Source of the DNA: Haloplanus sp. GDY1
GTDB taxonomy: Archaea; Halobacteriota; Halobacteria; Halobacteriales; Haloferacaceae
Direction: 5' to 3'
Length of the DNA: 64,000 nucleotides
Assembly: GCF_023703775.1 (NCBI RefSeq)
Contig: NZ_CP098514.1
Coordinates: forward strand, 2,205,998-2,269,997
The notes under the pieces were generated by a model. That model was not told the DNA's origin. It worked only from the letters and a program-made list of their open reading frames with translations, and did not search any database. The translations under genes and the position numbers were made by a program. Of the stretch, positions 10,602-27,491 are shown piece by piece. The stretch's first letter is position 1; each line of letters opens with the position of its first letter.

Positions 10602-11648
10602 TCAGAACCCCCGAAGGTCGTCGAGGACGGCCGCGGCGGACCCGTCGTCGATGGCCGACCGGGCGGCGTCGAGGCCGGCGTCGAGGCTGTCGGCGTCGCC
10701 GCCGGCGTAGATCCGGACGGCGGCGTTCAGCGCGACGGCGTCGTACCAGTGGTCGGTCCTGTCGCCCGCGACCACCTCGCGGGTGAGGCGGGCGCTGTCC
10801 GCGGCGACGTCCTCGACGCCCAAGTCCTCGGTTTCGAAGTCCATGCCGTACTCGGCGGTCTCGATCTCGTAATCCTCGAACTCGCCGTCGGCCGACCAGT
10901 CGGCGACCTTCGTGTAGCCGGGCCGGATGTCGTCGTACCCCTCCATCCCCTGGAACATGATGACGCGATCCAGGTCGTGGAACGTGCTCTCGTCGAACGT
11001 CTCGACCACCTTCTTCGCGAAGGCGAGGTGGTAGAAGGAGCCGAGGTGGACGCTCGCGCCCGCGGGGTTGGCGAGCGTCTCGACGGTGTTGACGAAGGTG
11101 CGCACGCCCATCCGGTCCCGGCGGTCGAACAGGTCGTGGACGGCGGGGTTGAAGGCCGGCTGGTAGTAGAAGCCGAAGCCCACCTCGTCGACCATCGCGG
11201 CGGAATCGCGGGGCGTCAGTTCGGTCGCGACGCCGAGTTCGTCGAGGACGTGCTTGTACGCGTCCTGCTTCTGCGTGGGGACGCGGTCGCCGGAGTGGGC
11301 GACCACGGGCGTCCCCGCGGCGGCGGCGACGACGCCGGCGGCGACGCCGAGGATGGCCGACCGGCCCTTGCCGTCGTAGTTGGCGCCGCAGTCGACCGGG
11401 TCGGCGTCCGGCGTCGCGTACTCGACGCGGTCGCACATCTCGTCGGTGAACGCGGCGAGTTCGGTCGGGGTGTTGTGTTTCCAGCGGTTGGCCAGCCAGA
11501 AGGCGCCGAGCGTCGTCGGGTCGGGGTCGCCGTCGAGGATGCGACGCATCGCCTCGCCCGCCTGCCGGCGGGTCATGTCTTCCGCCGATTTGGTCCCCGA
11601 CCCCACCACCTCGGTCATCAGGCGCTTGAGCGGCCACGACTCAGTCAC
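10602..11648 (-). CDS. Anthranilate phosphoribosyltransferase-like protein (TrpD2 type)
   Basis: A 348-residue member of the nucleoside phosphorylase/TrpD fold. N-terminal helices (RRQAGEAMRRILDGDPDP) are followed by the glycine-rich region (ILGVAAGVVAAAAGTPVVAH) where TrpD would bind PRPP. The usual GTGGD signature is absent; the equivalent position reads CGANYDGKGRS. Genuine TrpD activity is therefore doubtful. The gene overlaps cobA by 8 bp inside a siroheme and nitrite/sulfite reductase operon, far from any trp gene, so a role linked to that pathway is more likely. Confidence 0.8.
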   Translation of the reverse strand: MTESWPLKRLMTEVVGSGTKSAEDMTRRQAGEAMRRILDGDPDPTTLGAFWLANRWKHNTPTELAAFTDEMCDRVEYATPDADPVDCGANYDGKGRSAILGVAAGVVAAAAGTPVVAHSGDRVPTQKQDAYKHVLDELGVATELTPRDSAAMVDEVGFGFYYQPAFNPAVHDLFDRRDRMGVRTFVNTVETLANPAGASVHLGSFYHLAFAKKVVETFDESTFHDLDRVIMFQGMEGYDDIRPGYTKVADWSADGEFEDYEIETAEYGMDFETEDLGVEDVAADSARLTREVVAGDRTDHWYDAVALNAAVRIYAGGDADSLDAGLDAARSAIDDGSAAAVLDDLRGF

Positions 11649-12483
11649 TGTCGGTCACCTCCACGACCCGCTCGCCGGGGACGGCGAGGGGGGTCCCCTC
11701 GGCCACCGCGTCGCCGCCGCCGAGGCAGTGCGCGACCGTCTCGCGGACGTCCACCACGTCGCCGACGACGGTGACGGCGGGGGGTTCGACCGCCGCCTCC
11801 TCGGCCCGGGAGACGATGGAGTCGAGCGTCCCCGTGACCACCCGCTCGTCGTCGAGGGTGGCACGCTCGACCATCGCGACGGGCGTGTCGGCGTCGACGC
11901 CGCCCGCCCGGAGCGCCGCCACGTTGTCGGGCAGGCGCCCCACGCCCATCAGGATCACCAGCGTCCCGCCGGCGGCGACGAGGGAAGACAGGGCGTCCCA
12001 GTCGAGGGCGCTGTCGGCCTTGGTCGGGTCCTCGTGACCCGTCACGACCGCGAGCGTCGAGGCGTGGTCGCGGTGCGTCGGCGGGATGCCGGCGACGCCG
12101 GGGGCGGCGACGGCGCTCGTGATCCCGGGCACCACCTCGAAGGGGACGCCGTGGCTCGCGAGGTGTTCGGCCTCCTCGCCCCCGCGGGCGAAGATGGTCG
12201 GGTCGCCGCCCTTCAGGCGGACCACCTCGCGGCCCGCGGTCGCCTCGCGGACCAGGCGGTCGTTGATCTCCGCCTGTGGCGTCCGCTCGCCGTCGGCGCG
12301 CTTGCCGACGTTCTCGACCCGCGTCGGGTCGGGGATCGATTCGATCACGCCGTCGCCCACGAGCGAGTCGTGGAGGACGACGTCGGCCTCGTCGAGCAGG
12401 CGCCGGGCCTTCACGGTCATGAGTTCGGGATCACCCGGGCCGGCGCCGACGAGATACACCGTTCCGGTCGTCGTCGTGTTCAT
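11641..12483 (-). CDS. cobA: Uroporphyrinogen-III C-methyltransferase
   Basis: A 280-residue SAM-dependent tetrapyrrole methylase that makes precorrin-2 from uroporphyrinogen III. The N-terminus carries YLVGAGPGDPELMTVKA, with VRLKGGDPTIFARGGEEAEH, VVPGITSAVAAPGVAGIPPT and VILMGVGRLPDN, all landmarks of SUMT enzymes. The ATG at 12483 is chosen because it gives the family N-terminus and overlaps the preceding gene by 4 bp. The open frame further upstream is low-complexity shadow. It feeds SirC and the CbiX-type chelatase. Confidence 0.95.
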   Translation of the reverse strand: MNTTTTGTVYLVGAGPGDPELMTVKARRLLDEADVVLHDSLVGDGVIESIPDPTRVENVGKRADGERTPQAEINDRLVREATAGREVVRLKGGDPTIFARGGEEAEHLASHGVPFEVVPGITSAVAAPGVAGIPPTHRDHASTLAVVTGHEDPTKADSALDWDALSSLVAAGGTLVILMGVGRLPDNVAALRAGGVDADTPVAMVERATLDDERVVTGTLDSIVSRAEEAAVEPPAVTVVGDVVDVRETVAHCLGGGDAVAEGTPLAVPGERVVEVTDSD

Positions 12484-14000
12484 CTGTGAGTGGTCGTGTG
12501 GGTGCCGCCGGCGCGCCGGTAGCGGACCCGGTAGCGGTTGGCCGGATCGGTCAGGTCGCCCGGCGGCACGTCGGCGGCTGGCTGTTCTGGTGGCTGTTCC
12601 TCCGGCGGTTCGTCGACCAGCACCTCGCGGGCCGCGGCGACGAGGAAGGAACACGGCTCCCGGCAGGGGAGCGGCCCCTCGCCCCGGTCGACGGGGAGCG
12701 CGTCCCCCGCGCGCTCGTCCCACTCGCGGCGCTTGGCGCAGTTGCCACAGACCGCCTCGGTCACGTCGATCAGTTGCTCGCGGGAGAGGTTCGAGACGCG
12801 CTCGTAGATGCCCGTCTGTCTGGCGGCCACCTCGCGGTAGGGGACGGGGTCGGCGTCGTCGGCCCACTCCTCGACGGCGGCGGGGTACACCGCGGCGACG
12901 GCGCGCAGGAGTTCCCGGCCGTCGAGGTCCGACAGGACCCACCCGGTCGGCAGCGAGCGCTCGCCCGCGAAGGGGCGGTAGCGGCCGTCGTCGTCGCTGC
13001 GGACGAACCCGCGGAACGAGGCGGGGTCGCGCGCCGAGAGGTCGCTCCGGGGGACCCCGCGGTCGCTCCGGTGGCGGAGTTCGTAGGCCCCGTCGGCGAC
13101 GACGAGGAGGTCGCCCCACTCACGGGTCCGGCGACCGTCGGTCGCGGGCGCGGCGTCCACCCACGACAGGAAGGCCTCGCCGGCGTCGGGGCGGACGGGC
13201 GTCCCCGGGCCGGCGGCCCCGTCGACGTCGGCGCCCGCGTCCGCCGCGCGCTCGAGGAGCACCTCGGGCATGAGCGGGTCGGTGCCCACCGCGGAGGTGT
13301 ACCAGATCCGGCGGCCCTCGACCTCGCCGGGGACGGGGTAGCCCGCCCGCGGGTCGTCCGTGATGCCGAGGAGTTCCGGAATCTCGTCCTGGGTGTGGAA
13401 GCCGTCGGCGATGAAGAGGGGGACGACCGCGACGTCGTCGGCGTCGAACCGGTCGAGGACGTCGTCGACGTAGGGCTCCTCGTCCATGAACAGGGCGCCG
13501 ACCTCCGCGAAGTCGGTCGTCCCGCGCAGGGCGTCGACGTGGTCGTAGATGGCGTCGGCGCTGTTGGGGTTGCGCTCGGTGCCGTGGCCGACCACCGCGA
13601 GCGCCGCCGACGCCTCGTCGACGTCGTCGCCGAGGTAGCGACGGGCGCGTTCGGCCACCACCTCGGTCATCGCGGGGTGGGTGCCGACGGGGTCGGTGTA
13701 GACCACCTCGGGTTCCGCCTCGGTGCCCGTCACGTCGGCGACGCCGAGGCCGAACTCCCGGGGGAGCACCCCGTCGACGAAGTAGCCCTCGCTCACGAAC
13801 AGCGGCACGACGTACGCCACGTCGGCGTCGACCGTCCGCATCGCGGACCGGAAGGAGGGCGCCTCCTTCCAGAAGGCCTCGCGCACCTGCTCGAAGCAGC
13901 CGCGCTCGCGGATGGCGTCGGCGTGGGCGTACGTCGGCGTCGCGGAGTCCGGATTCCGGTGGGAGCCGTGTGCCGCGACGATCAGCGCCTGGTCGGTCAT
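12480..14000 (-). CDS. cbiX: CbiX-type sirohydrochlorin chelatase fused to an Fe-S (DR2241-like) domain
   Basis: A 506-residue protein. The N-terminal half has two tandem CbiX-like chelatase units: LIVAAHGSHRNPDSATPTYA with EAPSF and VPLFVSEGYF, then LAVVGHGTERNPNSADAIYD with VPLFIADGFHT. These insert iron (or cobalt) into sirohydrochlorin. The C-terminal 220 residues contain the cysteine set VCGNCAKRR and PCREPCSFL, as in the DR2241-type 4Fe-4S binding domain. The gene overlaps both neighbours by 4 bp. With sirC and cobA it completes siroheme synthesis from uroporphyrinogen III. Confidence 0.9.
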   Translation of the reverse strand: MTDQALIVAAHGSHRNPDSATPTYAHADAIRERGCFEQVREAFWKEAPSFRSAMRTVDADVAYVVPLFVSEGYFVDGVLPREFGLGVADVTGTEAEPEVVYTDPVGTHPAMTEVVAERARRYLGDDVDEASAALAVVGHGTERNPNSADAIYDHVDALRGTTDFAEVGALFMDEEPYVDDVLDRFDADDVAVVPLFIADGFHTQDEIPELLGITDDPRAGYPVPGEVEGRRIWYTSAVGTDPLMPEVLLERAADAGADVDGAAGPGTPVRPDAGEAFLSWVDAAPATDGRRTREWGDLLVVADGAYELRHRSDRGVPRSDLSARDPASFRGFVRSDDDGRYRPFAGERSLPTGWVLSDLDGRELLRAVAAVYPAAVEEWADDADPVPYREVAARQTGIYERVSNLSREQLIDVTEAVCGNCAKRREWDERAGDALPVDRGEGPLPCREPCSFLVAAAREVLVDEPPEEQPPEQPAADVPPGDLTDPANRYRVRYRRAGGTHTTTHR

Positions 14001-14279: not shown

Positions 14280-16058
14280 TCAGTCGTCCGAGGGGAGCGG
14301 TTCGCCGCGACCGTCCGTCGGCGCGGGCGAGGCGTTCATGTCGGTGTCCTCGGCGTAGGGGTACCACGTCATCTTCGTGTTCCCGAGGTAGGGGTCCTCG
14401 TAGCTCGTCTCCTCGGCGTCGGCGAGGGCGGCGAGTTCGTCCTCGTCCCTGTCGGCGACGAACTCGCGGAAGGACTCCTCGGGGCCCGCACGCTCCGCCT
14501 CGTAGGTTTCGAGCAGGTTCTCGACGTACCCGGGCACCTCGTCGGCGGGCACGCGCATCTTCACCCAGTCGGCGAACTTCGGGTTCTCGCCGAGGCCGCC
14601 GCCCAGACCCACGTCGAACGCCTCCACGGCGTCGCCGTCCTTCCGGGTCTTCATGCCTCGGAGGCTGATGTCGGCGATCTGTGGCTGGGCACAGGAGGCG
14701 GTACACCCCGAGAGGTGGATGTGGAAGTCCTCGACGCCCTCGGGGACGGGCACGTTGTCCCGGAGCCAGCGCCCGTAGCGGACCATCCGGTTTTTCGTCT
14801 CGACGATGGAGAGCGAGCAGTACTCGGTGCCCGTACACGCGATGGAGCCACGCATGAACGGATGGGGGTCCGGCGAGTGTTCCTCCAGCAGACCCTCGTC
14901 GAGGAAGTCGTCGAGGTCCTCGTCGGCGATGTCGCCGACGATGACGTTCTGGCGCTGGGTCAGGCCGATCATCTCGGAGCCGTACGCCTCGGCCAGGTCC
15001 GCGAGTTCGATCACGTCGTCGGCGCCCATGCGCCCGACGAGGACCGAGAGGCCGACGAAGTTCTGCCCGTCGTCCTGGTCGTGGACGCCGATGTAGTCGC
15101 CCGGCGAGTCCGAACGGCCGGCGTTGTAGTCGTACTCGTCGCGGAGTCCCTCGCCGGCGGTCGGGAGTTCGTAGTCGACGTACTCGTCCTGCAGCACCGA
15201 ACGGACCTTCTCGGGGCCCCACTCGTCGACGAGGAACTTGATGCGGGCGTTGAAGCGATCCTCGCGGTCGCCGTAGTCGCGGAAGAGCGCGGAGAGACCG
15301 GCGGCCACGTCGGCCGCGTTCTCGGGACGGCAGAAGACGTCGATGTCGCGGGCGAAGCGGGGTTCCTTGCGGGCGAGGCCGCCGCCGACGTTGACGTTGA
15401 AGCCGGCGACCTCCTCCCCCTCGATCTCCTTGACCGCGGGCTCGAAGGCGAGGTCGTTGATGTCGCCCTGGCCGGCGCCGCGGCGGTCGCCGGTCACGGC
15501 GACCTTCCACTTCCGGGGCAGGTTGGCGTAGAGGTCGTTGCCCTTGAACGTCTCGTGGAGTTCCTGCACCACGGGCCAGACGTCGATGAGTTCCTCGGCG
15601 TCGCGGCCGGCGACGGGCGAGCCGACGATGTTGCGCCAGGAGTCGCCACACGCCTGAATCGTGGACAGCCCCACGGATTCGAGTGCGTCGAATATCTCCG
15701 GAATGTCCTCGACTTTGATCCAGTGGAGCTGGATCGACTGCCGGGTCGTGAAGTCGGCGTAGGCCTCGCCGAACTCGGGGTTGTCGACCGGGCCGGTGGC
15801 GTACTCCCGGGCCACCTCGCCGACGGTCCGGAGCTGTTCGGGCGTCATCCGGCCCATCGGCGTCCCGATGCGCATCATGAAGTAGCTCTCCTGCCCCTTC
15901 CGCTGGTGATACAGCCCCCACCACTTGAACCGCTCGAACCACGCGTCGTGTTCGTCCTCCGGGATGGCGTCCCACCCCTCCTCCGCGAATCGGAGGAGGT
16001 GGTCGCGGATCTCCATCCCGTAGATTTCGTCTTTCCAGCTCTCGACCTTGGACGGCAT
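14280..16058 (-). CDS. Ferredoxin-dependent nitrite (or sulfite) reductase
   Basis: A 592-residue siroheme and 4Fe-4S enzyme that reduces nitrite to ammonia or sulfite to sulfide. The cluster and siroheme ligands are in ACTGTEYCSLSIVETK and HLSGCTASCAQPQIADISL. Two ferrodoxin-like half-domains are visible (TRQSIQLHWIKVEDIPEI; LTQRQNVIVGDI). The SCxQxQIADI sequence after the second Cys pair leans toward nitrite reductase, but sulfite reductase cannot be excluded, and no nitrate reductase gene is in the window. It is the first gene of the operon with the siroheme enzymes and a ferredoxin. The TATA-like box is at 16081-16087. Confidence 0.9.
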   Translation of the reverse strand: MPSKVESWKDEIYGMEIRDHLLRFAEEGWDAIPEDEHDAWFERFKWWGLYHQRKGQESYFMMRIGTPMGRMTPEQLRTVGEVAREYATGPVDNPEFGEAYADFTTRQSIQLHWIKVEDIPEIFDALESVGLSTIQACGDSWRNIVGSPVAGRDAEELIDVWPVVQELHETFKGNDLYANLPRKWKVAVTGDRRGAGQGDINDLAFEPAVKEIEGEEVAGFNVNVGGGLARKEPRFARDIDVFCRPENAADVAAGLSALFRDYGDREDRFNARIKFLVDEWGPEKVRSVLQDEYVDYELPTAGEGLRDEYDYNAGRSDSPGDYIGVHDQDDGQNFVGLSVLVGRMGADDVIELADLAEAYGSEMIGLTQRQNVIVGDIADEDLDDFLDEGLLEEHSPDPHPFMRGSIACTGTEYCSLSIVETKNRMVRYGRWLRDNVPVPEGVEDFHIHLSGCTASCAQPQIADISLRGMKTRKDGDAVEAFDVGLGGGLGENPKFADWVKMRVPADEVPGYVENLLETYEAERAGPEESFREFVADRDEDELAALADAEETSYEDPYLGNTKMTWYPYAEDTDMNASPAPTDGRGEPLPSDD

Positions 16059-16900: not shown

Positions 16901-18037
16901 CTACTTCTCCACGCGTTCGGCGGGCGAACGGCCGAGGAGTTCGGCCACGTGGCGCCGGATCGCGGCGTGAAACCGGTCGCTCGCGTAGCGGTCGCGGGGG
17001 AGCGTGGGTCGGGCGTCCGCCTCGATGGCCGCGGCGACGGTCGCCACCGCGTCGGCCGTGGAGTCGAACAGCCGGTCCGTGCGGTTCGCCAACACCTCCC
17101 GTTGCCCGCCGGCGTCGGGCGCGAACGCCACCATCCCCGCCGCGACGTACTCCGCGACGGCCATCCCGAAGTGTTCCCGTGGCTTGCAGTTGAGCCCGTA
17201 GCGGTGGGTTTCCAGCAACTCGTCGATCCGCTCGCGGGGCGCGTCGCGGTCCAGGTGGACGTACGGCCGGTCGGCGGCCGCGGCGGCGACCCGTCGGGCG
17301 TACTCGGCGTAGGCCGACGAGGACGACCCGGCCAGGTGGAGATGCAGGTCGTGTCCCCGCTCGCGGACGCCGTCGACGATCCGGATCGCCCGCAGCGGCC
17401 GCTTGTCGGGCGCCAGACGCCCCACCACGACGATCCCGCTCTCGCGTTCGGTCCACGGACGCGGATCCGGCGGCGGGTCGACCGGCGGGAACGTGACCGC
17501 GGGTCGGCGGCCGTAGACGGCCTCGACGGCGTCGGCCGTCCACGCGGAGTTGGCGAGGAGGCGGGCGTCGGCCGGGAGGCGTCGGTCCCCGAGGCCGGCC
17601 AGCCGGCTCCAGAGCGGGTTCAGGCGGCCCGCCGACCCGGCCGGCGCCGCCCGCCGGTTGAACTGCGGGTAGTGGACGTACTGCACGGAGGGAACCGGGA
17701 GGGCGAACTCGTTGGCGGTGCTGACGGCGGCGTCGAACCGGTCGGCGTGGCGGGCGAACAGGCGGTGAAGCAGGACGCTCCGCGGGGCCAGCGCCGGCCC
17801 CCAGCGTTCGGGGAGGGCGTCGAACGCCCGGCAGACGAGGGCCGTGCCCGGCGGACGGTAGACGGGGACGCGTGCGTCGGTGTCGAACAGCCGGTTCAGG
17901 TCCGCGAGCGACGACCGCGAGAGGGTGAGGAGGGTCACGTCGTGGACGGACTGGAGCGCCTCACAGACGTGGAGACAGACGGCGTCGGCGCCGCCGCGGC
18001 CGTCGAGCGTGTTGTGGAGGACCGCCACCCGCGCCAT
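16901..18037 (-). CDS. Glycosyltransferase family 4
   Basis: A 378-residue GT-B fold glycosyltransferase. The N-terminal half begins VAVLHNTLDGRGGADAVCLH with the GGA loop that contacts the acceptor. The C-terminal donor-binding half contains GIVVVGRLAPDKRPLRAIRI and the EX7E-type motif in EHFGMAVAEYVAAGM, followed by DAGGQREVL. It resembles ALG11/PimB-like mannosyltransferases, but donor and acceptor are unknown. It is divergent from the fused oxidoreductase gene (68-bp gap) at the start of the 16.9-24.4 kb cluster. Confidence 0.9.
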   Translation of the reverse strand: MARVAVLHNTLDGRGGADAVCLHVCEALQSVHDVTLLTLSRSSLADLNRLFDTDARVPVYRPPGTALVCRAFDALPERWGPALAPRSVLLHRLFARHADRFDAAVSTANEFALPVPSVQYVHYPQFNRRAAPAGSAGRLNPLWSRLAGLGDRRLPADARLLANSAWTADAVEAVYGRRPAVTFPPVDPPPDPRPWTERESGIVVVGRLAPDKRPLRAIRIVDGVRERGHDLHLHLAGSSSSAYAEYARRVAAAAADRPYVHLDRDAPRERIDELLETHRYGLNCKPREHFGMAVAEYVAAGMVAFAPDAGGQREVLANRTDRLFDSTADAVATVAAAIEADARPTLPRDRYASDRFHAAIRRHVAELLGRSPAERVEK

Positions 18038-18105
18038 GGCCGTCGTGGGGGGCGAACCGACTTAAGCGGCGGGAGGCTTTTCACGACCGCCGCCTGCCGA
18101 CGGGT

Positions 18106-20085
18106 ATGGAGTGTGCGTTCGTGGGGTGTGGCGCGGTGGCCCGGAAGTACGCCGCCACCCTGGACGCCTCGCCGCTCTCGCCGGTCGCGGCGTGTGACTT
18201 CGACGCCGACCGGGCGGCCGCGTTCGCGGCCGAGACGGGCGCGACGGCCTACACCGACCTCGACGCCGCCCTCGCGGCGACGGACGCGCCGCTGGTGGTG
18301 AACCTCACGAGCCACGACGCCCACGCGACGGTGACGGAGCGGGCGCTCCGCGCGGGGCGACACGTCTGGAGCGAGAAACCGCTCGCGCTGTCGGCCGACC
18401 GGGCGCGGGAACTGGTCGCCCTCGCGGAGCGGCGGGGGTTGGCGCTCGGGTGTGCGCCCACCAACCCCGAGGGCGAGGCCCAGCGACTCGCGCGGCGGGC
18501 GGTCGACGACGGTCGCCTCGGCGCCGTCCGCCTGGCGTACGCCCACGCCCACGTCGGCCGGGTGACGGAGTGGCACGACGACCCCGACTCCTTCCTCCGG
18601 GTCGGCCCGCTGTACGACGGCGGGGTCTACCCGCTGACCCTCCTCGTGGCGTGGTTCGGACCGGTGGCCCGGGTGCGGACCGCCGACGCCGTCGACCCCT
18701 GGCCCGACCGGGCGGCGCGGACGCCGGAGCGGCCCAGTCACGTCGAGGCGACCCTCGACTTCGCCGACGGTCCGGTGACGCGCCTGACCGCGAGCTTCTA
18801 CGCCCCCCACCGGAGCCGGGAGTTCACCAGCCTCGAACTCCACGGCGACGACGGATCGTGCTATCTCGACGACGCGGGCGCCCTCGGCGGCGACGGCGAG
18901 CGCCACGTCTCGGTGGGCCGGGCGGGGCGGGAGTACACCCCGAACCCGCTCACCGCGCCGTCGCGGCGGACGCCGTATCTCGCGGGGCCGGAGCGCCTCG
19001 CGGCGAGCGTCCGCCGGGGGCGGCCGGACCGCTCGACCGCCCGGCGGGCCGCCCACGTCGTCGCCGTCTGCAACGCGGTCGAACGGGCGGCCGAGCGGGG
19101 GTCGGCGGCGGTGGACGCGTGCGGCGTCGACGCGCCCGCCGAGCGGCGCGTGGTGTGGGGGGCGGCCGGCGGGACGGACGCCGACGGCCCCGTCGGCCCC
19201 CCGGACGCCGCCCTCCGTCTCCCCCCGGTCGGGTTCGGGTGTTCGCGCTACCGCGACGGCGAGTACGTCGACCGGCGGGACTCCATCGAGCGGGCGCTGG
19301 ACGCCGGCTATCGCCTCCTCGACTCCGCGGAACTGTACGGCAACGAGGCGCGGATCGGCGAGATTCTGGCCGCGCCGGGGAGCCCCGACCGGGAGGCCCT
19401 GTTCGTCGCGAGCAAGGCGTGGAACACCAACCACGGTCACGTCGCGGAGGCCTGCGAGACGACGCTCGCCGACCTCGGGCTGGACTCCCTGGACTGCTAC
19501 ATGCTCCACTGGCCGGAGTCGTGGGCGTACACCGGACCGCTGCGGCGACTCGCGGAGCTACCGGTCGAGAGACAGGAGGCGCTCACCTTCCCCGAGACGG
19601 CGGACGGCGACCGGGAGCGGGCGGACGTGAGCCTCGAATCGGCGTGGCGGGGGATGGAGGACCTCCACGACCGGGGGCTCGCGGCGACGCTCGGGATCTG
19701 TAACGTCGACCTGTCGACGCTCGTCGAACTCGTCGCGTTCGCGCGGGTTCCCCCCGCCGTCGTGCAGGTGGCGTGCCACCCCTACCGGCCCCGGACCGAC
19801 CTGGTCGACTGGTGTCACGAGCGGGGAATCCGGGTAGTGGCCCACTCCCCGCTGTCGGTGCCGGGGCTGCTCGACGACCCGGTCGTCGAGGACGTCGCCG
19901 CCGCGATGGGCGTCACGCCGGCGGCGGCGGTCCTCGCGTGGCACGTCGGCCGGGGCGTCGTCCCCATCCCCTCCAGCACCGACCCCGACCACGTGGTCGA
20001 GAACCTCGCCGCGGCGGGCCACCGCCTCCCCCCCGAGGCGCGGGAGCGGTTCGCGGGGCTCGAAGACCCGGAGTTCGAGCGATGA
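18106..20085 (+). CDS. Fused Gfo/Idh/MocA oxidoreductase and aldo/keto reductase
   Basis: A 659-residue protein joining two sugar-type oxidoreductases. Residues 1 to about 345 are Gfo/Idh/MocA: Rossmann loop FVGCGAVARKYAATL and the EKP motif in GRHVWSEKPLALS. Residues about 370-659 are an aldo/keto reductase TIM barrel with YRLLDSAELYGNEARIGEIL (Asp and Tyr of the tetrad), VASKAW (Lys) and YMLHWPESW (His), ending in the NADP-binding IPSSTDPDHV. All key residues appear present, so both halves may be active and pass an intermediate between them. The stop overlaps the next ATG by 4 bp. Confidence 0.88.
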   Translation: MECAFVGCGAVARKYAATLDASPLSPVAACDFDADRAAAFAAETGATAYTDLDAALAATDAPLVVNLTSHDAHATVTERALRAGRHVWSEKPLALSADRARELVALAERRGLALGCAPTNPEGEAQRLARRAVDDGRLGAVRLAYAHAHVGRVTEWHDDPDSFLRVGPLYDGGVYPLTLLVAWFGPVARVRTADAVDPWPDRAARTPERPSHVEATLDFADGPVTRLTASFYAPHRSREFTSLELHGDDGSCYLDDAGALGGDGERHVSVGRAGREYTPNPLTAPSRRTPYLAGPERLAASVRRGRPDRSTARRAAHVVAVCNAVERAAERGSAAVDACGVDAPAERRVVWGAAGGTDADGPVGPPDAALRLPPVGFGCSRYRDGEYVDRRDSIERALDAGYRLLDSAELYGNEARIGEILAAPGSPDREALFVASKAWNTNHGHVAEACETTLADLGLDSLDCYMLHWPESWAYTGPLRRLAELPVERQEALTFPETADGDRERADVSLESAWRGMEDLHDRGLAATLGICNVDLSTLVELVAFARVPPAVVQVACHPYRPRTDLVDWCHERGIRVVAHSPLSVPGLLDDPVVEDVAAAMGVTPAAAVLAWHVGRGVVPIPSSTDPDHVVENLAAAGHRLPPEARERFAGLEDPEFER

Positions 20086-20858
20086 GCGGGAGGAACGTCC
20101 GCGAACGGCGACTGGGGGCCGCCGCGGTGACGGCGACGGCCGTCGCCGCCGCCGGGGTGGCGGTCGGGGGGTGGACGCTCGTCGCCGACGCGACGACCCG
20201 CGCCGCCGCGAACCGGTGGACGCTGGTGACGGGGGCGGTCCTGGCCTACGAGGTGGGCTTTCTCGCCTACCACGTCGACGCCGACCGACCGGGAGCGGCG
20301 GCCGCCCCGCCGAACCTCGTCACGCTGGCACGGGGGCTGCTGTACGCCGCGACGGCGGGGTTTCTGGTCGTCCCGCCGTCGGCGCCGGCGGTGCGCTGGG
20401 CGCCCGCGGTCTGTTACGGGACCGGCGTCGCCCTCGATTTCGCCGACGGCCGTCTCGCGCGGCGAACGGGGCGGACGACGCCGCTCGGGGAGAGACTCGA
20501 CCACGCCTTCGATACGCTGGGCTTTCTCGTCGCGCCGCTCGTGGGCGTCGCGTGGGGGCGACTCCCCCTCGCCTACCTCTCGCTGTCGGCCGCGCGGTAC
20601 GTCTACCGCGCCGGCGTCGGGTGGCGCCGCCGCCGGGAGCGACCCGTGGCCGACCTGCCGGCCAGCCGGGTGCGACGCCCGCTGGCGGCGCTCCAGATGG
20701 GGTTCATCACCGTCGCGCTGGCGCCGGCCCTGCCGGCGTCGCTCGTCCACCCGGCGAGCCTGGTCGTCGTCGCGCCGTCGCTCGCCGTCTTCGCGCGCGA
20801 CTACCTGGCCGTCACGGGGCGACTGGGGGGACGGATCGGCCGGCGCGGCGATGGGTAG
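20082..20858 (+). CDS. CDP-alcohol phosphatidyltransferase family membrane protein
   Basis: A 258-residue integral membrane enzyme with about six hydrophobic segments. The full CDP-alcohol phosphotransferase signature D-x2-DG-x2-AR-x8-G-x3-D-x3-D is intact in DFADGRLARR followed by TGRTTPLGERLDHAFD. Such enzymes move a phosphoalcohol from a CDP-linked donor to an alcohol acceptor, usually making a lipid head group. The ATG at 20082 overlaps the previous stop. Substrates are unknown; the cluster suggests a modified polyol or sugar. Confidence 0.9.
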   Translation: MSGRNVRERRLGAAAVTATAVAAAGVAVGGWTLVADATTRAAANRWTLVTGAVLAYEVGFLAYHVDADRPGAAAAPPNLVTLARGLLYAATAGFLVVPPSAPAVRWAPAVCYGTGVALDFADGRLARRTGRTTPLGERLDHAFDTLGFLVAPLVGVAWGRLPLAYLSLSAARYVYRAGVGWRRRRERPVADLPASRVRRPLAALQMGFITVALAPALPASLVHPASLVVVAPSLAVFARDYLAVTGRLGGRIGRRGDG

Positions 20859-20908
20859 CCGCCCGTCCCGGGCGGCAGTATGAAGTGAGCGGCGTCGCTA
20901 GAGCGTTC

Positions 20909-21964
20909 GTGACAGGGAGCGTCGAGGACGCCGACGAGACGGGGACCACCCTCCCCACGACCGGACGGTCGCTCTACTTCACCGAGCCACGGACGGTCAG
21001 CGTCGAACCGGAGCCGGTGAGCGCCCCCGGCCCCGACGAGGTGCTCGTCGAGACGCGCCGCTCGGCGGTGAGTTCGGGGACCGAACTCCTGATCTACCGT
21101 GGGGAGATGCCCCGCGACCTGCCCGCCGACGCGACGCTCGATTCGCTCGACGGCGACCTCTCCTACCCGCTGAAGTACGGCTACGCGGCCGTCGGGGAGG
21201 TGGTGGCCTGCGGCGCGAACGTCGACGAGTCGTGGCGCGGCCGGCGGGTCTTCGCCTTCCACCCCCACGAGAGCCACTTCCTCGCGACGCCGGACGCCCT
21301 CGTGCCGGTGCCGGAGGACGTCTCGACGGAGACGGCGGCCCTCCTGCCGACGGCGGAGACGGCGACGACGCTCGCCATGGACGGCCGGCCGCGGGTCGGC
21401 GAACGGGTCGTCGTCTTCGGCGCGGGCATGGTCGGCCTCGTCACGACGAGCGTCCTGTCGTCGTTCCCGCTGGAGCGGCTCACGGTGGTCGAGCCCGTCC
21501 CCCACCGGCGGGAGATGGCCACCCGCCTCGGCGCCGACGAGACGCTCCGGCCCGAGGCGGCGGCGACGGTGGGCGAGCGCGGCGACCCCCCGGGCGCGGA
21601 CCTGGTTTACGAACTCTCGGGGTCGCCCGAGACGCTCGACGGCGCCATCGACGCCGTGGGGTACGACGGCCGGATCGTCGTCGGGTCGTGGTACGGGCGC
21701 AAGCGCGCCGAGACGGACCTCGGGGGCTTTTTCCACCGGAACCGGATCGACGTGTCGTCGAGTCAGGTGAGCACGCTCGCGCCCGACCTCCGGGGTCGGT
21801 GGACCAAGGAACGGCGGCTGGACGTGGCGTGGGAGCGCCTCCGGGGACTGGCGACCGACCGCCTCGTCACCCACCGGATCGGCGTCGGGAGCGCCGGGGA
21901 CGCCTACCGACTGCTGGACGACGGCCCCGAGAACGCGCTGCAGGTGTTGCTCACCTACGAGTAG
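20909..21964 (+). CDS. Zinc-type alcohol dehydrogenase-like protein (MDR family)
   Basis: A medium-chain dehydrogenase/reductase of about 351 residues. The nucleotide-binding loop is VVVFGAGMVGLVTTSVLSSF. The N-terminal GroES-like part contains RRSAVSSGTELLIYRGEM and VGEVVACGANVDE. The cysteine cluster of the structural zinc site is absent. The GTG at 20909 is taken as start; an in-frame GTG at 20885 would add eight residues. It lies 50 bp after the CDP-alcohol gene and is followed by the PTPS-like gene. The substrate is unknown and probably shared with the fused oxidoreductase. Confidence 0.85.
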   Translation: MTGSVEDADETGTTLPTTGRSLYFTEPRTVSVEPEPVSAPGPDEVLVETRRSAVSSGTELLIYRGEMPRDLPADATLDSLDGDLSYPLKYGYAAVGEVVACGANVDESWRGRRVFAFHPHESHFLATPDALVPVPEDVSTETAALLPTAETATTLAMDGRPRVGERVVVFGAGMVGLVTTSVLSSFPLERLTVVEPVPHRREMATRLGADETLRPEAAATVGERGDPPGADLVYELSGSPETLDGAIDAVGYDGRIVVGSWYGRKRAETDLGGFFHRNRIDVSSSQVSTLAPDLRGRWTKERRLDVAWERLRGLATDRLVTHRIGVGSAGDAYRLLDDGPENALQVLLTYE

Positions 21965-22000
21965 GCCGGGGTATAAGTCGATCCGCCCCCACGCCCGGGT

Positions 22001-22378
22001 ATGTATCGGCTCTCGGTGTCGCGGGACTTCGTGGCCCAACACTTCCTCACGGTCCCCGACCCCGGCCCCGAAGGCGAGGTGCACAGCCACCACTTCGAGG
22101 TGGCGGTGCGCTTCGCCGGCCCCGACCTCAACGAGTACGGCTACCTCGTCGACATCGACGCCGTCGACGCCGCCCTCGACGACCTGGAGGCCCGCTATCG
22201 CGACGCGCTCCTGAACGACCTGCCGGAGTTCGAGGGGGCGAACCCGAGCGTCGAGCGCTTCGCGCGGGTCTTCGGCGACCGGTTCGTCGAGCACGTTCCC
22301 ACCGACCACCCCACGCGCCTGACCGTCCGGATGTGGGAGGACGAGGACGCGTGGGCCAGCCACGAGCGCGCGCTGTGA
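22001..22378 (+). CDS. 6-pyruvoyl-tetrahydropterin synthase/QueD-like protein without cysteines
   Basis: A 125-residue T-fold protein. The zinc-binding histidines are AQHF near residue 14 and VHSHHFEV near residues 29-31. The catalytic cysteine of PTPS and QueD is missing, and there is no cysteine in the whole protein; Glu residues precede the second His pair (PEGEVHSHH). A Glu/His-based variant resembling PTPS-III is possible, so the reaction may differ from queuosine or biopterin synthesis. It is coupled to the next gene by a TGATG overlap. Confidence 0.82.
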   Translation: MYRLSVSRDFVAQHFLTVPDPGPEGEVHSHHFEVAVRFAGPDLNEYGYLVDIDAVDAALDDLEARYRDALLNDLPEFEGANPSVERFARVFGDRFVEHVPTDHPTRLTVRMWEDEDAWASHERAL

Positions 22379-23205
22379 TGAACCACGCCGACGAGGGGTA
22401 TCTGGAGGCGAAGCGCACGGTCGACGAGCGCGCGCTGGACCGGCGGGTGCGTGACCGCCTCCTCGACGAACTCCCGGCGGCGCCGCGGGTGCTTGAGGCC
22501 GGCTGTGGCACCGGCGTCACCGTCCCCCGTCTCGTGGCGTGGGGCGTGACCGACGGCGAGTACCGGGGAGTCGACCGCGACGCCGCCACCGTCGAGCGCG
22601 CCCGGGCGCTGCGGGCGGCGGAACTCGACGCCGACGCCGACGCCGACGGCGAGGGATTCCGCGTCGACGACCTGACCGTCCGGTTCGAGGCGGGCGACGC
22701 CCTCGACGCGTTCGCCGGCGAGCGGGCGGACCTCGTCGTCGCGGCGGCGTTTCTGGACCTCGTGCCCGTCGACGAGGCGCTCGACGCCTTCGCGTCGGCG
22801 CTGGCGCCCGGCGGCCTGGTGTACGCGCCGATCACCTTCGACGGCGAGACGGTCTTCCAGCCCGACCACCCGGCCGACGACGCCGTCGTCGCGGCGTATC
22901 ACGACGCCATCGACGACGAACCGGGGCGGGACGCCCGGGCGGGCCGGCACCTGCTCGACCGCTGCCGGGCGCGGGACGGCGCCCTGCTGGCGGCCGGCGC
23001 GTCGGACTGGATCGTCCACCCCCGCGACGGCGGCTACCCCGCGGACGAGCGCCGCTTCCTCGGAGCGATCCTCTCGTTCGTCGAGGAGGCGGTCGACGGG
23101 GTGCCGGGAGCCGAGGACTGGCTCCGAACCCGCCGCCGACAGCTCGATTCGGGGACGCTGACCTACGTGGCCCACGGGTACGACGTGCTCTACCGGCCCG
23201 GGTGA
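22378..23205 (+). CDS. SAM-dependent methyltransferase (class I)
   Basis: A 275-residue protein. SAM-binding motif I is RVLEAGCGTGVTVPRL, the acidic residue after strand 2 is in YRGVDRDAATVERA, and motif post-II is ADLVVAAAFLDLVP. A C-terminal cap region (DSGTLTYVAHGYDVLYRPG) completes the fold. The start codon shares its A with the stop of the PTPS-like gene. The substrate is unknown and is likely the product of the cluster. Confidence 0.85.
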   Translation: MNHADEGYLEAKRTVDERALDRRVRDRLLDELPAAPRVLEAGCGTGVTVPRLVAWGVTDGEYRGVDRDAATVERARALRAAELDADADADGEGFRVDDLTVRFEAGDALDAFAGERADLVVAAAFLDLVPVDEALDAFASALAPGGLVYAPITFDGETVFQPDHPADDAVVAAYHDAIDDEPGRDARAGRHLLDRCRARDGALLAAGASDWIVHPRDGGYPADERRFLGAILSFVEEAVDGVPGAEDWLRTRRRQLDSGTLTYVAHGYDVLYRPG

Positions 23206-23228
23206 GCGCCGCCTCTCGGGGCGAGCGA

Positions 23229-23588
23229 CTACGCCTCCCGGCGGTAGAGGACGACGAGGACGGCGATCAGCGTCACCTGCACCACCTTGTCGCCGATGCC
23301 GCCGGGGCCGAGGACGTTGGGCCAGTTCAGGTAGAAGTAGAGGAGGATCTGGACGCCGGTGAAGGGAATCCCGACGAGATAGAGGAGCCGGCGGCGATAC
23401 CCCACCAGGAGGAGGAGGATGGCGACGAAGAAGGCGACGCCCGCGAGGACGAAGCTGACGCCCTGGAGAGTGTCGATGGCGAGGACGCCGAAGTACAGGT
23501 GGACGAGGCCGGTGACGGCCGCCAGCGCGACGCCGAACCAGTGGAGGCGGGTGAGCGACGCCGTCTCGAAGGTGGACGTGGACGACAT
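23229..23588 (-). CDS. Four-helix membrane protein (DUF7475-like)
   Basis: A 119-residue protein with four hydrophobic segments: WFGVALAAVTGLVHLYFGVL, FVLAGVAFFVAILLLLV, LYLVGIPFTGVQILLYFY and VVQVTLIAVLVVLYR. It has the layout of haloarchaeal small integral membrane proteins; the DUF7475 label is from memory. It is convergent with the methyltransferase and divergent from the GT2 gene. Confidence 0.8.
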   Translation of the reverse strand: MSSTSTFETASLTRLHWFGVALAAVTGLVHLYFGVLAIDTLQGVSFVLAGVAFFVAILLLLVGYRRRLLYLVGIPFTGVQILLYFYLNWPNVLGPGGIGDKVVQVTLIAVLVVLYRREA

Positions 23589-23632
23589 TCCCTCCCACGG
23601 TTGTCGCGAGGCGGCCTAAACCCTGGGGTCGG

Positions 23633-23641
23633 TTATTTATT
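23633..23641 (+). promoter_or_regulatory. TATA box of the GT2 gene
   Basis: TTATTTATT in an otherwise GC-rich stretch, centred about 28 nt before the ATG at 23665. A nearly leaderless transcript is expected. Confidence 0.55.
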
Positions 23642-23664
23642 GACCGGCGGGCCGTCGGTTGGGT

Positions 23665-24387
23665 ATGGGCATCGAGTACGTGCGGCGGGCGAGCGATCCG
23701 GCCGTGTCGGTCGTCGTGCCGTCGGTGCCGGCCTCCGACCACCGGCCGACGATGGCCTGCCTGCGGGCACAGGCGTTCGACGGTGACTACGAAATCCTCC
23801 TCGTCGACGACGGGTCGGTCGACCGCTCGGAAGCCAGAAACAGGGGGCTGGAGGCGGCGTCGGCCGGGGTGGTGGCGCTCACCGACGACGACACCAGACC
23901 GCCGGCGGACTGGCTGGCGACGGCCCACGCCGCCTTCGAGTCGGATCCGGCGCTGGTCTGTCTGGAGGGTCCCGTCTACGGCGGCTGTCGCAGTTTCGGC
24001 CCGCGACACTACGTGGGGTGTAACCTCGCCGTCCGGCGGGACGCGGCCCTCGACGTCGGCGGCTTCCGGTCGGCGTTCTCCGAGTGGCGCGAGGACGTGG
24101 AGTTCGGCTGGCGGATGGAGGCCGAGGCGGCGGGTCGCTGTCGGTTCGAGGAGTCGTTCCGGATGTGCCACCCGTCGGTGCCACGGACGGCGTTCGACCC
24201 GGCGCTGGAGGCGCGGCTGAAGCGGGAGTATCCCGAGCGATACGACGAGGTGATGGACGTGACGCCGACGCGACGGCTCTATCGTCGGGCGCGGGCCGCG
24301 GGGATCACCCAGCCGCTCCAGCGGGTGCGAAACGCGATCAAGCGGCGGCTACGGGGGGAGTGCGTGGGGGCCGCCGGAAGCGAGTAG
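23665..24387 (+). CDS. Glycosyltransferase family 2
   Basis: A 240-residue GT-A fold glycosyltransferase. Strand 1 is VSVVVPSVP, and the nucleotide-sugar site is YEILLVDDGSVDRSEARNRG with the metal-binding DDD in VVALTDDDTRPPADW. The acceptor region is EDVEFGWRMEAEAAG. The ATG at 23665 is preferred over the TTG two codons earlier because of its spacing to the TATA box. It closes the 16.9-24.4 kb cluster and probably acts on the same glycoconjugate as the GT4 enzyme. Confidence 0.88.
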   Translation: MGIEYVRRASDPAVSVVVPSVPASDHRPTMACLRAQAFDGDYEILLVDDGSVDRSEARNRGLEAASAGVVALTDDDTRPPADWLATAHAAFESDPALVCLEGPVYGGCRSFGPRHYVGCNLAVRRDAALDVGGFRSAFSEWREDVEFGWRMEAEAAGRCRFEESFRMCHPSVPRTAFDPALEARLKREYPERYDEVMDVTPTRRLYRRARAAGITQPLQRVRNAIKRRLRGECVGAAGSE

Positions 24388-25123: not shown

Positions 25124-25130
25124 CTATATG
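25124..25130 (+). promoter_or_regulatory. TATA box of the GAPDH operon
   Basis: CTATATG, centred about 25 nt before the ATG at 25152, fits a leaderless transcript. No TrmB-type palindrome (TAC-N7-GTA) was evident next to it. Confidence 0.55.
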
Positions 25131-25151
25131 CGGGTGAGGCCAACGAACGGT

Positions 25152-26144
25152 ATGATTCGCGTAGGCGTAAACGGATACGGCACCATCGGCAAGCGGGTCG
25201 CCGACGCAGTGAGCTCGATGCCCGACATGGAGCTCGTGGGCATCGGCAAGGCCAGTCCGAACCACACGGCGGACGCGGCCGCGGAGCGCGGCTACGACAT
25301 CTACGTCCCGGAGGGGCGGGAGGACCGGTGGGCCGAGGCTGGGATGGCGGTCGCGGGCGACATCCACGACCTCATCGAGGCGAGCGACATCGTCGCCGAC
25401 GCGACGCCGGCCGGGATGGGCGCGGAGTACCGCCCGGTCTACGAGGAGTACGACACGCCGGCGCTGTTCCAGGGCGGCGAGGGCGCCGACGTTGCCGAGG
25501 CGAGTTTCACCGCCCGCGCCAACTACTCCGAGGCGACCGACGAGGAGTACGTGCGGATCGTCTCCTGTAACACGACGGGGCTGAACCGGATGTTCGCGCC
25601 GCTGCACGAGGAGTACGGCGTCGAACGCGCGAGCATCACGCTCGTGCGGTGTCGGGGCGAACACGCGGTCATCTCCGCCGATCCCGTCACGCTCCCCTCG
25701 CATCACGGTCCGGACGCGCTCGAAGTCATTCCGGATATGGGACCGGTGACGACGATGGGGATGAAGGTGCCGACGGTGCGCCACCACTTCCACGGGATCA
25801 ACGTGGAACTCGGGGCGGAGCCGAGCGCCGCGGAGGTTCGGGACCTGCTCGCCTCCCAGTCGCGCATCCACGTCGTCGACGGCGACCTGGGGATCGACTC
25901 CGGGTGGGAGCTACAGGAGTTCGCCCTCGACCGCGGCCGCGACCGGATGAACCTCTACGAGAACCAGATCTTCGAGGACTCCATCAGCATGGAGGGGCCA
26001 CAGCTCCACCTGTTCCAGTCCATCCACCGCGAGAGCGACGTGGTGCCGGAGAACGTCGACGCCATCCGCGCGATGATGGGCGACGCCGACGCCGAGGAGA
26101 GCATCGAACTGACGAACGACGTGCTGGGAATCGGCAACATTTAA
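25152..26144 (+). CDS. gap: Glyceraldehyde-3-phosphate dehydrogenase, archaeal type II
   Basis: A 330-residue NAD(P)-dependent enzyme of glycolysis/gluconeogenesis. The N-terminal Rossmann motif is IRVGVNGYGTIGKRVADAV and the catalytic cysteine is in IVSCNTTGLNRM. The archaeal phosphate-binding region reads PSHHGPDALEVIP. The ATG at 25152 gives the family N-terminus; an upstream in-frame ATG at 25128 is only 1 nt downstream of the TATA core, so it is excluded. The TAA stop is followed immediately by the next gene's ATG. Confidence 0.96.
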   Translation: MIRVGVNGYGTIGKRVADAVSSMPDMELVGIGKASPNHTADAAAERGYDIYVPEGREDRWAEAGMAVAGDIHDLIEASDIVADATPAGMGAEYRPVYEEYDTPALFQGGEGADVAEASFTARANYSEATDEEYVRIVSCNTTGLNRMFAPLHEEYGVERASITLVRCRGEHAVISADPVTLPSHHGPDALEVIPDMGPVTTMGMKVPTVRHHFHGINVELGAEPSAAEVRDLLASQSRIHVVDGDLGIDSGWELQEFALDRGRDRMNLYENQIFEDSISMEGPQLHLFQSIHRESDVVPENVDAIRAMMGDADAEESIELTNDVLGIGNI

Positions 26145-27491
26145 ATGGCAAGCGAGACCGAGACGGTCGACGAGCCGTCGGAACCGGGCACCGAACTGGT
26201 CAGCGGCTACGGATCGAGCCCCGGCGTCGCGACCGGTCCCGTGAGGATCATCGAGGACATCGACGAGGCCGACCGGATCGACGAGGGGGACGTGATCGTC
26301 ACCGAGATGACCGCGCCCGACATGGTGCCCGCGATGAAACGCTCGGCGGGGATCATCACCGACGAGGGCGGGATGACCTCCCACGCGGCCATCGTCTCCC
26401 GCGAACTCGGCGTGCCCGCCATCGTCGGCTGTGGCGACGCCACGTCCGTCCTGTCCGACGGCCAGCGGGTCACCCTCGACGGCCAGAAAGGGACGGTCGT
26501 CGTCGCCGAGGAGGAAGTCGAGGACGCCGATCCCGGGGACGACCCCACCGAGGGCGGCAGCGGCGCCCCGCCGACCACGGCGACGGAGGTGAAGGTGAAC
26601 GTCTCAATCCCCGACGCCGCCCAGCGGGCGGCCGACACGGGCGCCGACGGCGTCGGCCTCCTGCGACTGGAGCACATCCTGCTCTCGACGAGCAAGACGC
26701 CCGAGAGGTACGTCGCGGACCACGGCGAGGACGCCTTCGTCGAGGAGATCTCCGAGGAGATCCGGAAGGTGGCCGACGCGTTCTACCCGCGGCCGGTGCG
26801 CGCCCGCACCCTCGACGCCCCGACGGACGAACTCGCGGAACTCGAGGGGGGCGAGGAGGAACCCCACGAGCACAACCCGATGCTCGGCTACCGGGGCATC
26901 CGGCGCTCGCTGAAGGAACCCGAGATGGTCAAACTCGAACTGCGGGCGTTCAAGCGCCTGCACGACATGGGCTACGACAACGTCGAGGTCATGTTCCCCC
27001 TCCCCAACGACGCGGCGGACGTGCGCCGCGCCCGCGAACTGATGGACGAGGTGGGCATCGACCGGGAGAAGCACCGCTGGGGGGCGATGATCGAGACGCC
27101 GGCCAGCATCCGCGCCATCGACGAGATCATCGACGAGGGCATCGACTTCGTCGCGCTGGGCACCAACGACATCGTCCAGTTCATGCTCGCGGTCGACCGC
27201 AACAACGCGATGGTCGCGGACCGCTTCGACGACTTCCACCCCACCATCCTGGAGGCGATGGCGGAGGTCATCGAGGCGTGTAACGAACGCGACGTCGACA
27301 CCACCATCACGGGACAGTCCGGCTCCCACCCCGACATGGCGAAGTTCCTCGTGGAGAGGGGGATCAGTTCCCTCTCCTCGAACATCGACGCCGTCGGCGA
27401 GGTGCGCCGCGTCGTCGCCCGCGCCGAGCGGAAACTCCTGCTCGACGCGGCGCGGGAGAACCTGGACGACGAGGACCCCCGGATCGACTGA
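26145..27491 (+). CDS. PEP-utilizing protein: swivelling His domain plus TIM barrel, no ATP-grasp domain
   Basis: A 448-residue protein equal to the C-terminal two thirds of PEP synthase/PPDK/enzyme I. The phosphohistidine domain is residues about 20-125 (GGMTSHAAIVSRELGVPAIV). The PEP-binding TIM barrel is residues about 145-440 (ADGVGLLRLEHIL, NPMLGYRGIRRS, MIETPASIRAID, LGTNDIVQF, with ITGQSGSHPDM near the active-site end). The ATP-grasp domain that would load the histidine is absent. It abuts GAPDH, so it belongs to central carbon metabolism. It may act with a separate ATP-binding partner or as a regulatory form. Confidence 0.85.
   Translation: MASETETVDEPSEPGTELVSGYGSSPGVATGPVRIIEDIDEADRIDEGDVIVTEMTAPDMVPAMKRSAGIITDEGGMTSHAAIVSRELGVPAIVGCGDATSVLSDGQRVTLDGQKGTVVVAEEEVEDADPGDDPTEGGSGAPPTTATEVKVNVSIPDAAQRAADTGADGVGLLRLEHILLSTSKTPERYVADHGEDAFVEEISEEIRKVADAFYPRPVRARTLDAPTDELAELEGGEEEPHEHNPMLGYRGIRRSLKEPEMVKLELRAFKRLHDMGYDNVEVMFPLPNDAADVRRARELMDEVGIDREKHRWGAMIETPASIRAIDEIIDEGIDFVALGTNDIVQFMLAVDRNNAMVADRFDDFHPTILEAMAEVIEACNERDVDTTITGQSGSHPDMAKFLVERGISSLSSNIDAVGEVRRVVARAERKLLLDAARENLDDEDPRID

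Follow-up and report, generated by a model that had tools for sequence, protein, structure and literature searches.

A 64,000-nucleotide stretch of the 3.44 Mb genome of Haloplanus sp. GDY1, hereafter the window, contains a gene cluster around a PTPS-like T-fold protein. The cluster represents a real and widely conserved pathway. Its core comprises a medium-chain dehydrogenase/reductase (MDR), the PTPS-like protein, a class I methyltransferase dependent on S-adenosylmethionine (SAM) and a glycosyltransferase of the GT4 family. A second group of genes, referred to here as the lipid module, encodes a CDP-alcohol phosphatidyltransferase, a small DUF7475 membrane protein and a fusion of a Gfo/Idh/MocA oxidoreductase with an aldo-keto reductase, and both groups recur in haloarchaea. 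We propose, with a probability of about 0.5, that the product of the cluster is GTP-derived, glycosylated, methylated and most probably tethered to a membrane lipid. The GTP-derived precursor is fairly well supported and the lipid end of the pathway is plausible. It should be noted that the key evidence, a set of GTP cyclohydrolase, creatininase and RibD_C genes, lies outside the window in related clusters.

Conservation of the cluster in haloarchaea and actinobacteria

The PTPS-like protein was matched in 114 of the 194 genomes of the class, representing 45 of 65 genera, and the gene is also carried by ten plasmid records, all haloarchaeal. The neighbourhoods of 106 loci were read, namely those of 100 of the 113 other matching genomes, five of the ten plasmid matches (which may repeat sampled genomes) and the window itself. 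Genes were predicted with a composition-based caller and clustered into families, and because the family profiles were built from the loci themselves, the counts of family members cannot be treated as independent of the sample. Among the called genes, the MDR was present in 93 loci, the methyltransferase in 80, the CDP-alcohol transferase in 63, DUF7475 in 61 and the fusion in 31, while six-frame profile searches returned 94, 80, 63, 62 and 31, respectively. Around queC, used as a control in 20 loci of the same class (one of them only 10.6 kb long), no cluster family reached the threshold.

Some GT4 was found in 91 of the 106 loci, in one of two types. The commoner type, located mostly between the PTPS-like and methyltransferase genes, occurs in 76 loci and the type found in the window in 15; the remaining 15 have neither and none has both. 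Since the two types never occur together, the divergent GT4 of the window looks like a replacement of the commoner one. The CDP-alcohol transferase, DUF7475 and fusion genes travel as a group whose strand and side vary with respect to the core. DUF7475 often adjoins the CDP-alcohol transferase, which is present in all 31 loci with the fusion. A sulfatase-superfamily protein was found in 22 loci and a PAP2 phosphatase in ten. In one haloarchaeal group (L059, L061, L062, L069, L070 and similar loci), a fixed gene set including a HAD-type hydrolase precedes the cluster, which probably reflects clade synteny. A viral origin was rejected, since viral contigs scanned with the PTPS-like protein as the query yielded no relative.

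The search in actinobacteria used an actinobacterial homologue as the query. Of the 409 confirmed matches, the 80 best loci were analysed, a choice that leans towards close relatives of that query. They come mainly from Streptomyces and Micromonospora. Six-frame profiles detected the MDR and GT4 in 79 loci each, the methyltransferase in 78, a PF03706 flippase-like gene in 77 and the CDP-alcohol transferase and RibA in 74 each. These loci, of the type to which SCO6650 of S. coelicolor belongs, share with the haloarchaeal cluster the order MDR-PTPS-GT4-methyltransferase, with the CDP-alcohol transferase gene alongside. They differ in carrying RibA, a creatininase or RibD_C, and the flippase-like gene, whereas the haloarchaeal loci have GTP cyclohydrolase IIa (ArfA, in 42 of 106), DUF7475 and the fusion. 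In the S. coelicolor locus, the RibA-type enzyme is SCO6655, and a creatininase gene is also present.

When 296 genomes of the actinomycete phylum were drawn, 31 gave a match to the PTPS-like protein, and 20 of these 31 loci were read as a third set. Most of them form a third lineage, in which RibD_C (18 of 20 loci) directly precedes MDR-PTPS-GT4. FolB adjoins this arrangement in 16 of the 20 (L226-L243), a PlsC-like acyltransferase is likewise found in 16, and nine contain a gene resembling an exporter of the major facilitator superfamily (MFS). No CDP-alcohol transferase was detected in any of the 20 loci.

GTP cyclohydrolases and the proposed precursor

In 34 of the haloarchaeal loci that have ArfA, its gene immediately precedes that of the MDR, the median gap being 3 nucleotides. 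Two copies of ArfA were found in 22 genomes, 18 of which have the PTPS-like gene, and in 17 of these 18 one ArfA lies inside the cluster. The association between two ArfA copies and the PTPS-like gene gave a Fisher p of 0.02, uncorrected for relatedness. Neither ArfA nor ArfC was found inside the cluster of the window. Elsewhere in the same genome lie one copy of ArfA, one of RibD_C and two genes of the creatininase family, and these can provide the precursor. Two further observations concern the haloarchaeal sample. A creatininase-family match lies near four PTPS-like loci (L039, L063, L106 and L109), and five of the 194 genomes (G044, G079, G089, G140 and G145, four of one genus) showed no ArfA match at E 1e-10.

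In haloarchaea, ArfA stands where actinobacteria have RibA, an unrelated enzyme. In the 80 actinobacterial loci, RibA varies at one position of the motif GIGLxxKxxA[M/Y], and this position partitions with the neighbouring genes, creatininase and RibD_C being called at a 250-bit threshold. All 46 loci with a Met in RibA have the creatininase and none has RibD_C; none of the 26 loci with a Tyr has the creatininase and 23 have RibD_C. One remaining RibA has a His and is accompanied by the creatininase, and seven loci are unreadable at that position. The three RibA sequences of the third set all have Tyr, one of them in a locus with the Micromonospora-type gene order. Two or more RibA matches were obtained in each of the ten actinobacterial genomes tested, so that none of them depends on the cluster copy as its sole RibA. 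The Met form of RibA in SCO6655 reportedly stops at the formylated intermediate. In Sinorhizobium, a creatininase-family protein deformylates this intermediate (PMC9478397). Both RibA types would therefore arrive at 2,5-diamino-6-ribosylamino-4(3H)-pyrimidinone 5'-phosphate.

Related clusters thus contain GTP cyclohydrolase, creatininase and RibD_C genes, from which we infer that the precursor is a diamino-(ribosyl/ribityl)amino-pyrimidinone phosphate. The cluster resembles the archaeal riboflavin pathway (ArfA, ArfB and ArfC) in the ArfA of 42 loci and in the proposed precursor, which is an early riboflavin intermediate. To our knowledge, riboflavin synthesis involves none of the dehydrogenase, T-fold protein and glycosyl-, methyl- and CDP-alcohol transferases of the cluster.

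The window locus and its encoded proteins

The genes of the window are listed in Table 1. The eight open reading frames that had been reported in a first-pass annotation agree with ours in coordinates and family, and the one that it left unnamed encodes the DUF7475 protein. Its statement that several genes are translationally coupled holds for two of the four same-strand junctions, which overlap by 4 nt (fusion/CDP-alcohol transferase) and 1 nt (PTPS/methyltransferase), but the other two are spaced by 50 and 36 nt. The cluster that it described was confirmed in that its families recur beyond chance; however, the GT2 that it included was found in only three of the 106 haloarchaeal loci and was dropped from the cluster. 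The core genes of the window are in the order MDR-PTPS-methyltransferase, with GT4 divergent and upstream.

Table 1. Genes at the cluster locus, with positions in the window
Gene product	Position	Strand	Pfam match	Remark
GT4-family glycosyltransferase	16901..18037	-	PF00534 3.1e-12	
Gfo/Idh/MocA oxidoreductase + aldo-keto reductase fusion	18106..20085	+	PF01408, PF22725, PF00248	Gfo/Idh/MocA residues 2-333, aldo-keto reductase 375-649
CDP-alcohol phosphatidyltransferase	20082..20858	+	PF01066 1.6e-16	
MDR dehydrogenase	20909..21964	+	PF00107	alternative start 20885
PTPS-like T-fold protein	22001..22378	+	PF01242 4.3e-25	
Class I SAM methyltransferase	22378..23205	+	PF13489 1.7e-10	single weak match in a sequence search of PDB
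Small membrane protein DUF7475	23229..23588	-	PF24287 2e-10	
GT2-family glycosyltransferase	23659..24387	+	PF00535 7.2e-11	alternative start 23752; neighbour, judged outside the conserved cluster

The AlphaFold model of the PTPS-like protein (pLDDT 96.6) was used for fold comparison, and a single-sequence model (pLDDT 59.7) was not used. The best fold match is SCO6650 (PDB 3D7J; Z 18.5, rmsd 1.4, 125 aligned residues), whose PDB entry bears the name 'uncharacterized protein'; structures of PTPS and QueD follow closely (Z 17.1). The sequence identity to actinobacterial members of the SCO6650 family is 31-33%. H14, E85 and E113 are invariant in the PTPS-like family. Like QueD/6-pyruvoyl-tetrahydropterin synthase (COG0720), the protein has a T-fold, and its three zinc-binding His residues and C-terminal Glu (E113) coincide with those of nine haloarchaeal QueD sequences to which it was aligned. 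In QueD, this Glu holds the pterin and an Asp-His pair serves catalysis. Unlike in QueD, the catalytic Cys is replaced by Glu (Glu24) in haloarchaea or by Ala, and the Asp-His pair is not kept, R67-D68 lying opposite it when the protein is aligned to E. coli QueD. The zinc-binding His residues are retained in haloarchaea and the third lineage, while H30 is Ala in the actinobacterial SCO6650-type proteins.

According to PMC5041015, QueD (PTPS-I) is marked by the motif CxxxHGH and the folate enzyme PTPS-III by ExxHGH. The window protein has neither: it reads E24-G-E-V-H28-S-H30, with Gly25 three residues before H28 and the Glu four residues before it, at the position of the Cys. In a tree, the cluster family is separated from the nine haloarchaeal QueD with 100/100 support, albeit from few columns, and the window protein falls inside the haloarchaeal clade (100/99); the third-lineage rows require three label changes. 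The cluster family also persists without QueC. No strong QueC was found in the window genome (best 3.9e-5, compared with about 1e-70 elsewhere), some other cluster carriers lack a strong QueC as well, and where QueC and the cluster occur in one genome, a second PF01242 gene is usually present. On the basis of motif, clade and the absence of QueC, identities as QueD/archaeosine enzyme or PTPS-III were rejected, and we regard the PTPS-like protein as neither of the two.

In the MDR, the glycines of the GxGxxG motif (G171, G173 and G176) are intact and S55-x-G57-T58-E59 is present. The catalytic zinc Cys was not found in an alignment with 4ilk, where SSGTE lies opposite C-GSD; a Ser occupies the position that this Cys has in zinc-dependent MDRs. 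The CDP-alcohol transferase, one of four PF01066 proteins of the window genome, has the complete signature of its family, DxxDGxxARx8GxxxDxxxD (D119, D122, G123, A126, R127, G136, D140 and D144), and these residues are conserved in 100% of the 63 haloarchaeal and 98-100% of the 74 actinobacterial sequences. The motif is shared with archaetidylinositol phosphate synthase and other CDP-alcohol transferases, but the cluster enzyme scores far below all NCBIfam cut-offs (28.9 versus 180 bits at best). A lipid product would be consistent with the PAP2 phosphatase, with the flippase-like gene of the actinobacterial loci and with the acyltransferase found in the third lineage; the fusion gene may provide a polyol.

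Outside the cluster, the region 12480-14000 (minus strand) matches the CbiX chelatase in two stretches and also contains DR2241 and 4Fe-4S domains. Together with the adjoining genes for a tetrapyrrole methylase (11641-12483) and for a nitrite/sulphite reductase (14280-16058), it looks like a sirohaem and assimilatory reduction group. On the other side, a glyceraldehyde-3-phosphate dehydrogenase-like gene (25128-26144) precedes a gene for a phosphoenolpyruvate (PEP)-utilising enzyme (26145-27491, plus strand) with mobile and PEP-binding domains and no match to the ATP-binding domain.

Proposed pathway and alternative explanations

From these data we infer a sequence of reactions that ends in linkage to a lipid. 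GTP would be opened to a formylamino-pyrimidine nucleotide by ArfA, encoded elsewhere in the window genome, or by RibA in actinobacteria, and deformylation by an ArfB-type creatininase or by RibA itself would yield 2,5-diamino-6-ribosylamino-4(3H)-pyrimidinone 5'-phosphate. This compound would probably be reduced to the ribityl form by RibD_C/ArfC. The MDR and the PTPS-like protein may then rework the sugar side chain of the pyrimidine or close a second ring, with E113 holding the 2-amino-4-oxo-pyrimidine ring in a reaction other than the QueD/PTPS chemistry. GT4 would glycosylate and the methyltransferase would methylate the product, and the CDP-alcohol transferase could finally couple a phosphate-bearing form to CDP-archaeol, or in actinobacteria to CDP-diacylglycerol, followed there by the flippase-like gene.

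The first-pass annotation had suggested that the genes build a novel modified polyol or pterin-derived head group on a membrane lipid, and the direction of this suggestion is borne out in part. Its neighbours proved to be conserved across haloarchaea and actinobacteria rather than scattered, the bacterial counterparts that it mentioned, with PTPS-like, GT4, dehydrogenase and CDP-alcohol genes, do exist, and no known pathway has been assigned to the same gene set in the literature searched; the GT2 fell away. The pterin-derived origin is strengthened by the GTP-cyclohydrolase supply in related clusters, which points to a GTP-derived pyrimidine. The membrane-lipid head group is favoured by the CDP-alcohol transferase and the lipid and flippase genes and is still a matter of prediction, while the polyol has its sole basis in the fusion gene, present in 31 of 106 loci.

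Several observations weigh against the proposed pathway. The 13 matching haloarchaeal genomes left out of the neighbourhood set include most of the weakest matches. In 64 of the 106 haloarchaeal loci, including that of the window, the cluster has no GTP cyclohydrolase. Of the 41 genome loci that do have ArfA, 24 hold the only copy of their genome, so the adjacency there may reflect riboflavin supply. The Met/Tyr partition of RibA largely tracks genera and thus represents few independent events. The actinobacterial PTPS-like protein, having Ala in place of the third zinc His, may bind no metal. In 43 of the 106 haloarchaeal loci, as in the entire third set, the CDP-alcohol transferase is missing from the stretch read, so the lipid linkage may not be general. 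A search of the literature, short on subscription papers, returned no description of the cluster or of a GTP-derived lipid.

Given the mobility of the lipid module relative to the core, we considered that there are two pathways, in which the core makes a soluble or exported GTP-derived glycoside (a pigment, a cofactor or an antibiotic-like compound) and the lipid genes make a separate polyol phospholipid. The loci without the CDP-alcohol transferase and the MFS exporter-like gene of the third set agree with such a separation. In contrast, the core has the CDP-alcohol transferase gene close by in 74 of the 80 actinobacterial loci and in 63 of the 106 from haloarchaea, an association across domains for which a chance neighbour is hardly likely, and we consider this explanation unlikely, though it deserves serious attention. 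It is distinctly less probable that the cluster modifies or supplies flavins (riboflavin or F420, or a flavin or lumazine derivative), with ArfA acting as a riboflavin gene. The ArfA of H. volcanii, HVO_1284, lies in the cluster of that organism. PMC8305020 describes HVO_1284 as required for riboflavin, and the genomes in which the cluster ArfA is the only copy accord with this role. However, in 17 genomes the ArfA of the cluster exists in addition to another copy, all ten actinobacterial genomes tested have a further RibA, and the only riboflavin-pathway members among the annotated recurrent actinobacterial families are RibA, RibD_C and the creatininase.

The cluster could also be a plain sugar or polyol glycophospholipid pathway with the PTPS-like protein as a non-catalytic scaffold, since the catalytic Cys and Asp-His are absent and the fusion and the CDP-alcohol transferase could suffice for a polyol phospholipid. 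This is improbable in view of the invariant Glu that aligns with that of QueD, the zinc-binding His residues, which haloarchaea and the third lineage preserve, and the GTP cyclohydrolase, creatininase and RibD_C genes of related clusters. Least probable is that the PTPS-like gene is simply the QueD (archaeosine) or PTPS-III folate enzyme of the organism and its neighbours are incidental. Public records do annotate it as 6-carboxytetrahydropterin synthase and the window genome has no other PF01242 gene, but the replacements at the Cys and, as Gly25, at the PTPS-III Glu, the loss of Asp-His, the separate clade and the QueC distribution all argue otherwise.

In its most specific form, the proposed GTP-derived, lipid-anchored product would be a new class of membrane lipid in haloarchaea and actinobacteria, with a head group built from GTP, whose opened purine ring, still bearing a ribityl or ribosyl phosphate, would be reworked by the T-fold protein and the dehydrogenase, glycosylated, methylated and joined through this sugar phosphate to CDP-archaeol or CDP-diacylglycerol, a suggestion that we put forward only tentatively. 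If true, the lipid would be surface-exposed, possibly redox-active and pterin- or flavin-like, its GTP being opened by the unrelated ArfA and RibA. An unassigned pathway whose PTPS-like gene occurs in more than half of the sampled haloarchaeal genomes and in 31 of 296 genomes of the actinomycete phylum marks a gap in near-core metabolism. Our finding supplies an entry metabolite for it and a logic open to testing, in which unrelated GTP cyclohydrolases serve two domains and an active-site residue of RibA predicts the presence of a deformylase. 'QueD' labels on these cluster genes are probably wrong, and a possible purpose is suggested for the solved structure of SCO6650.

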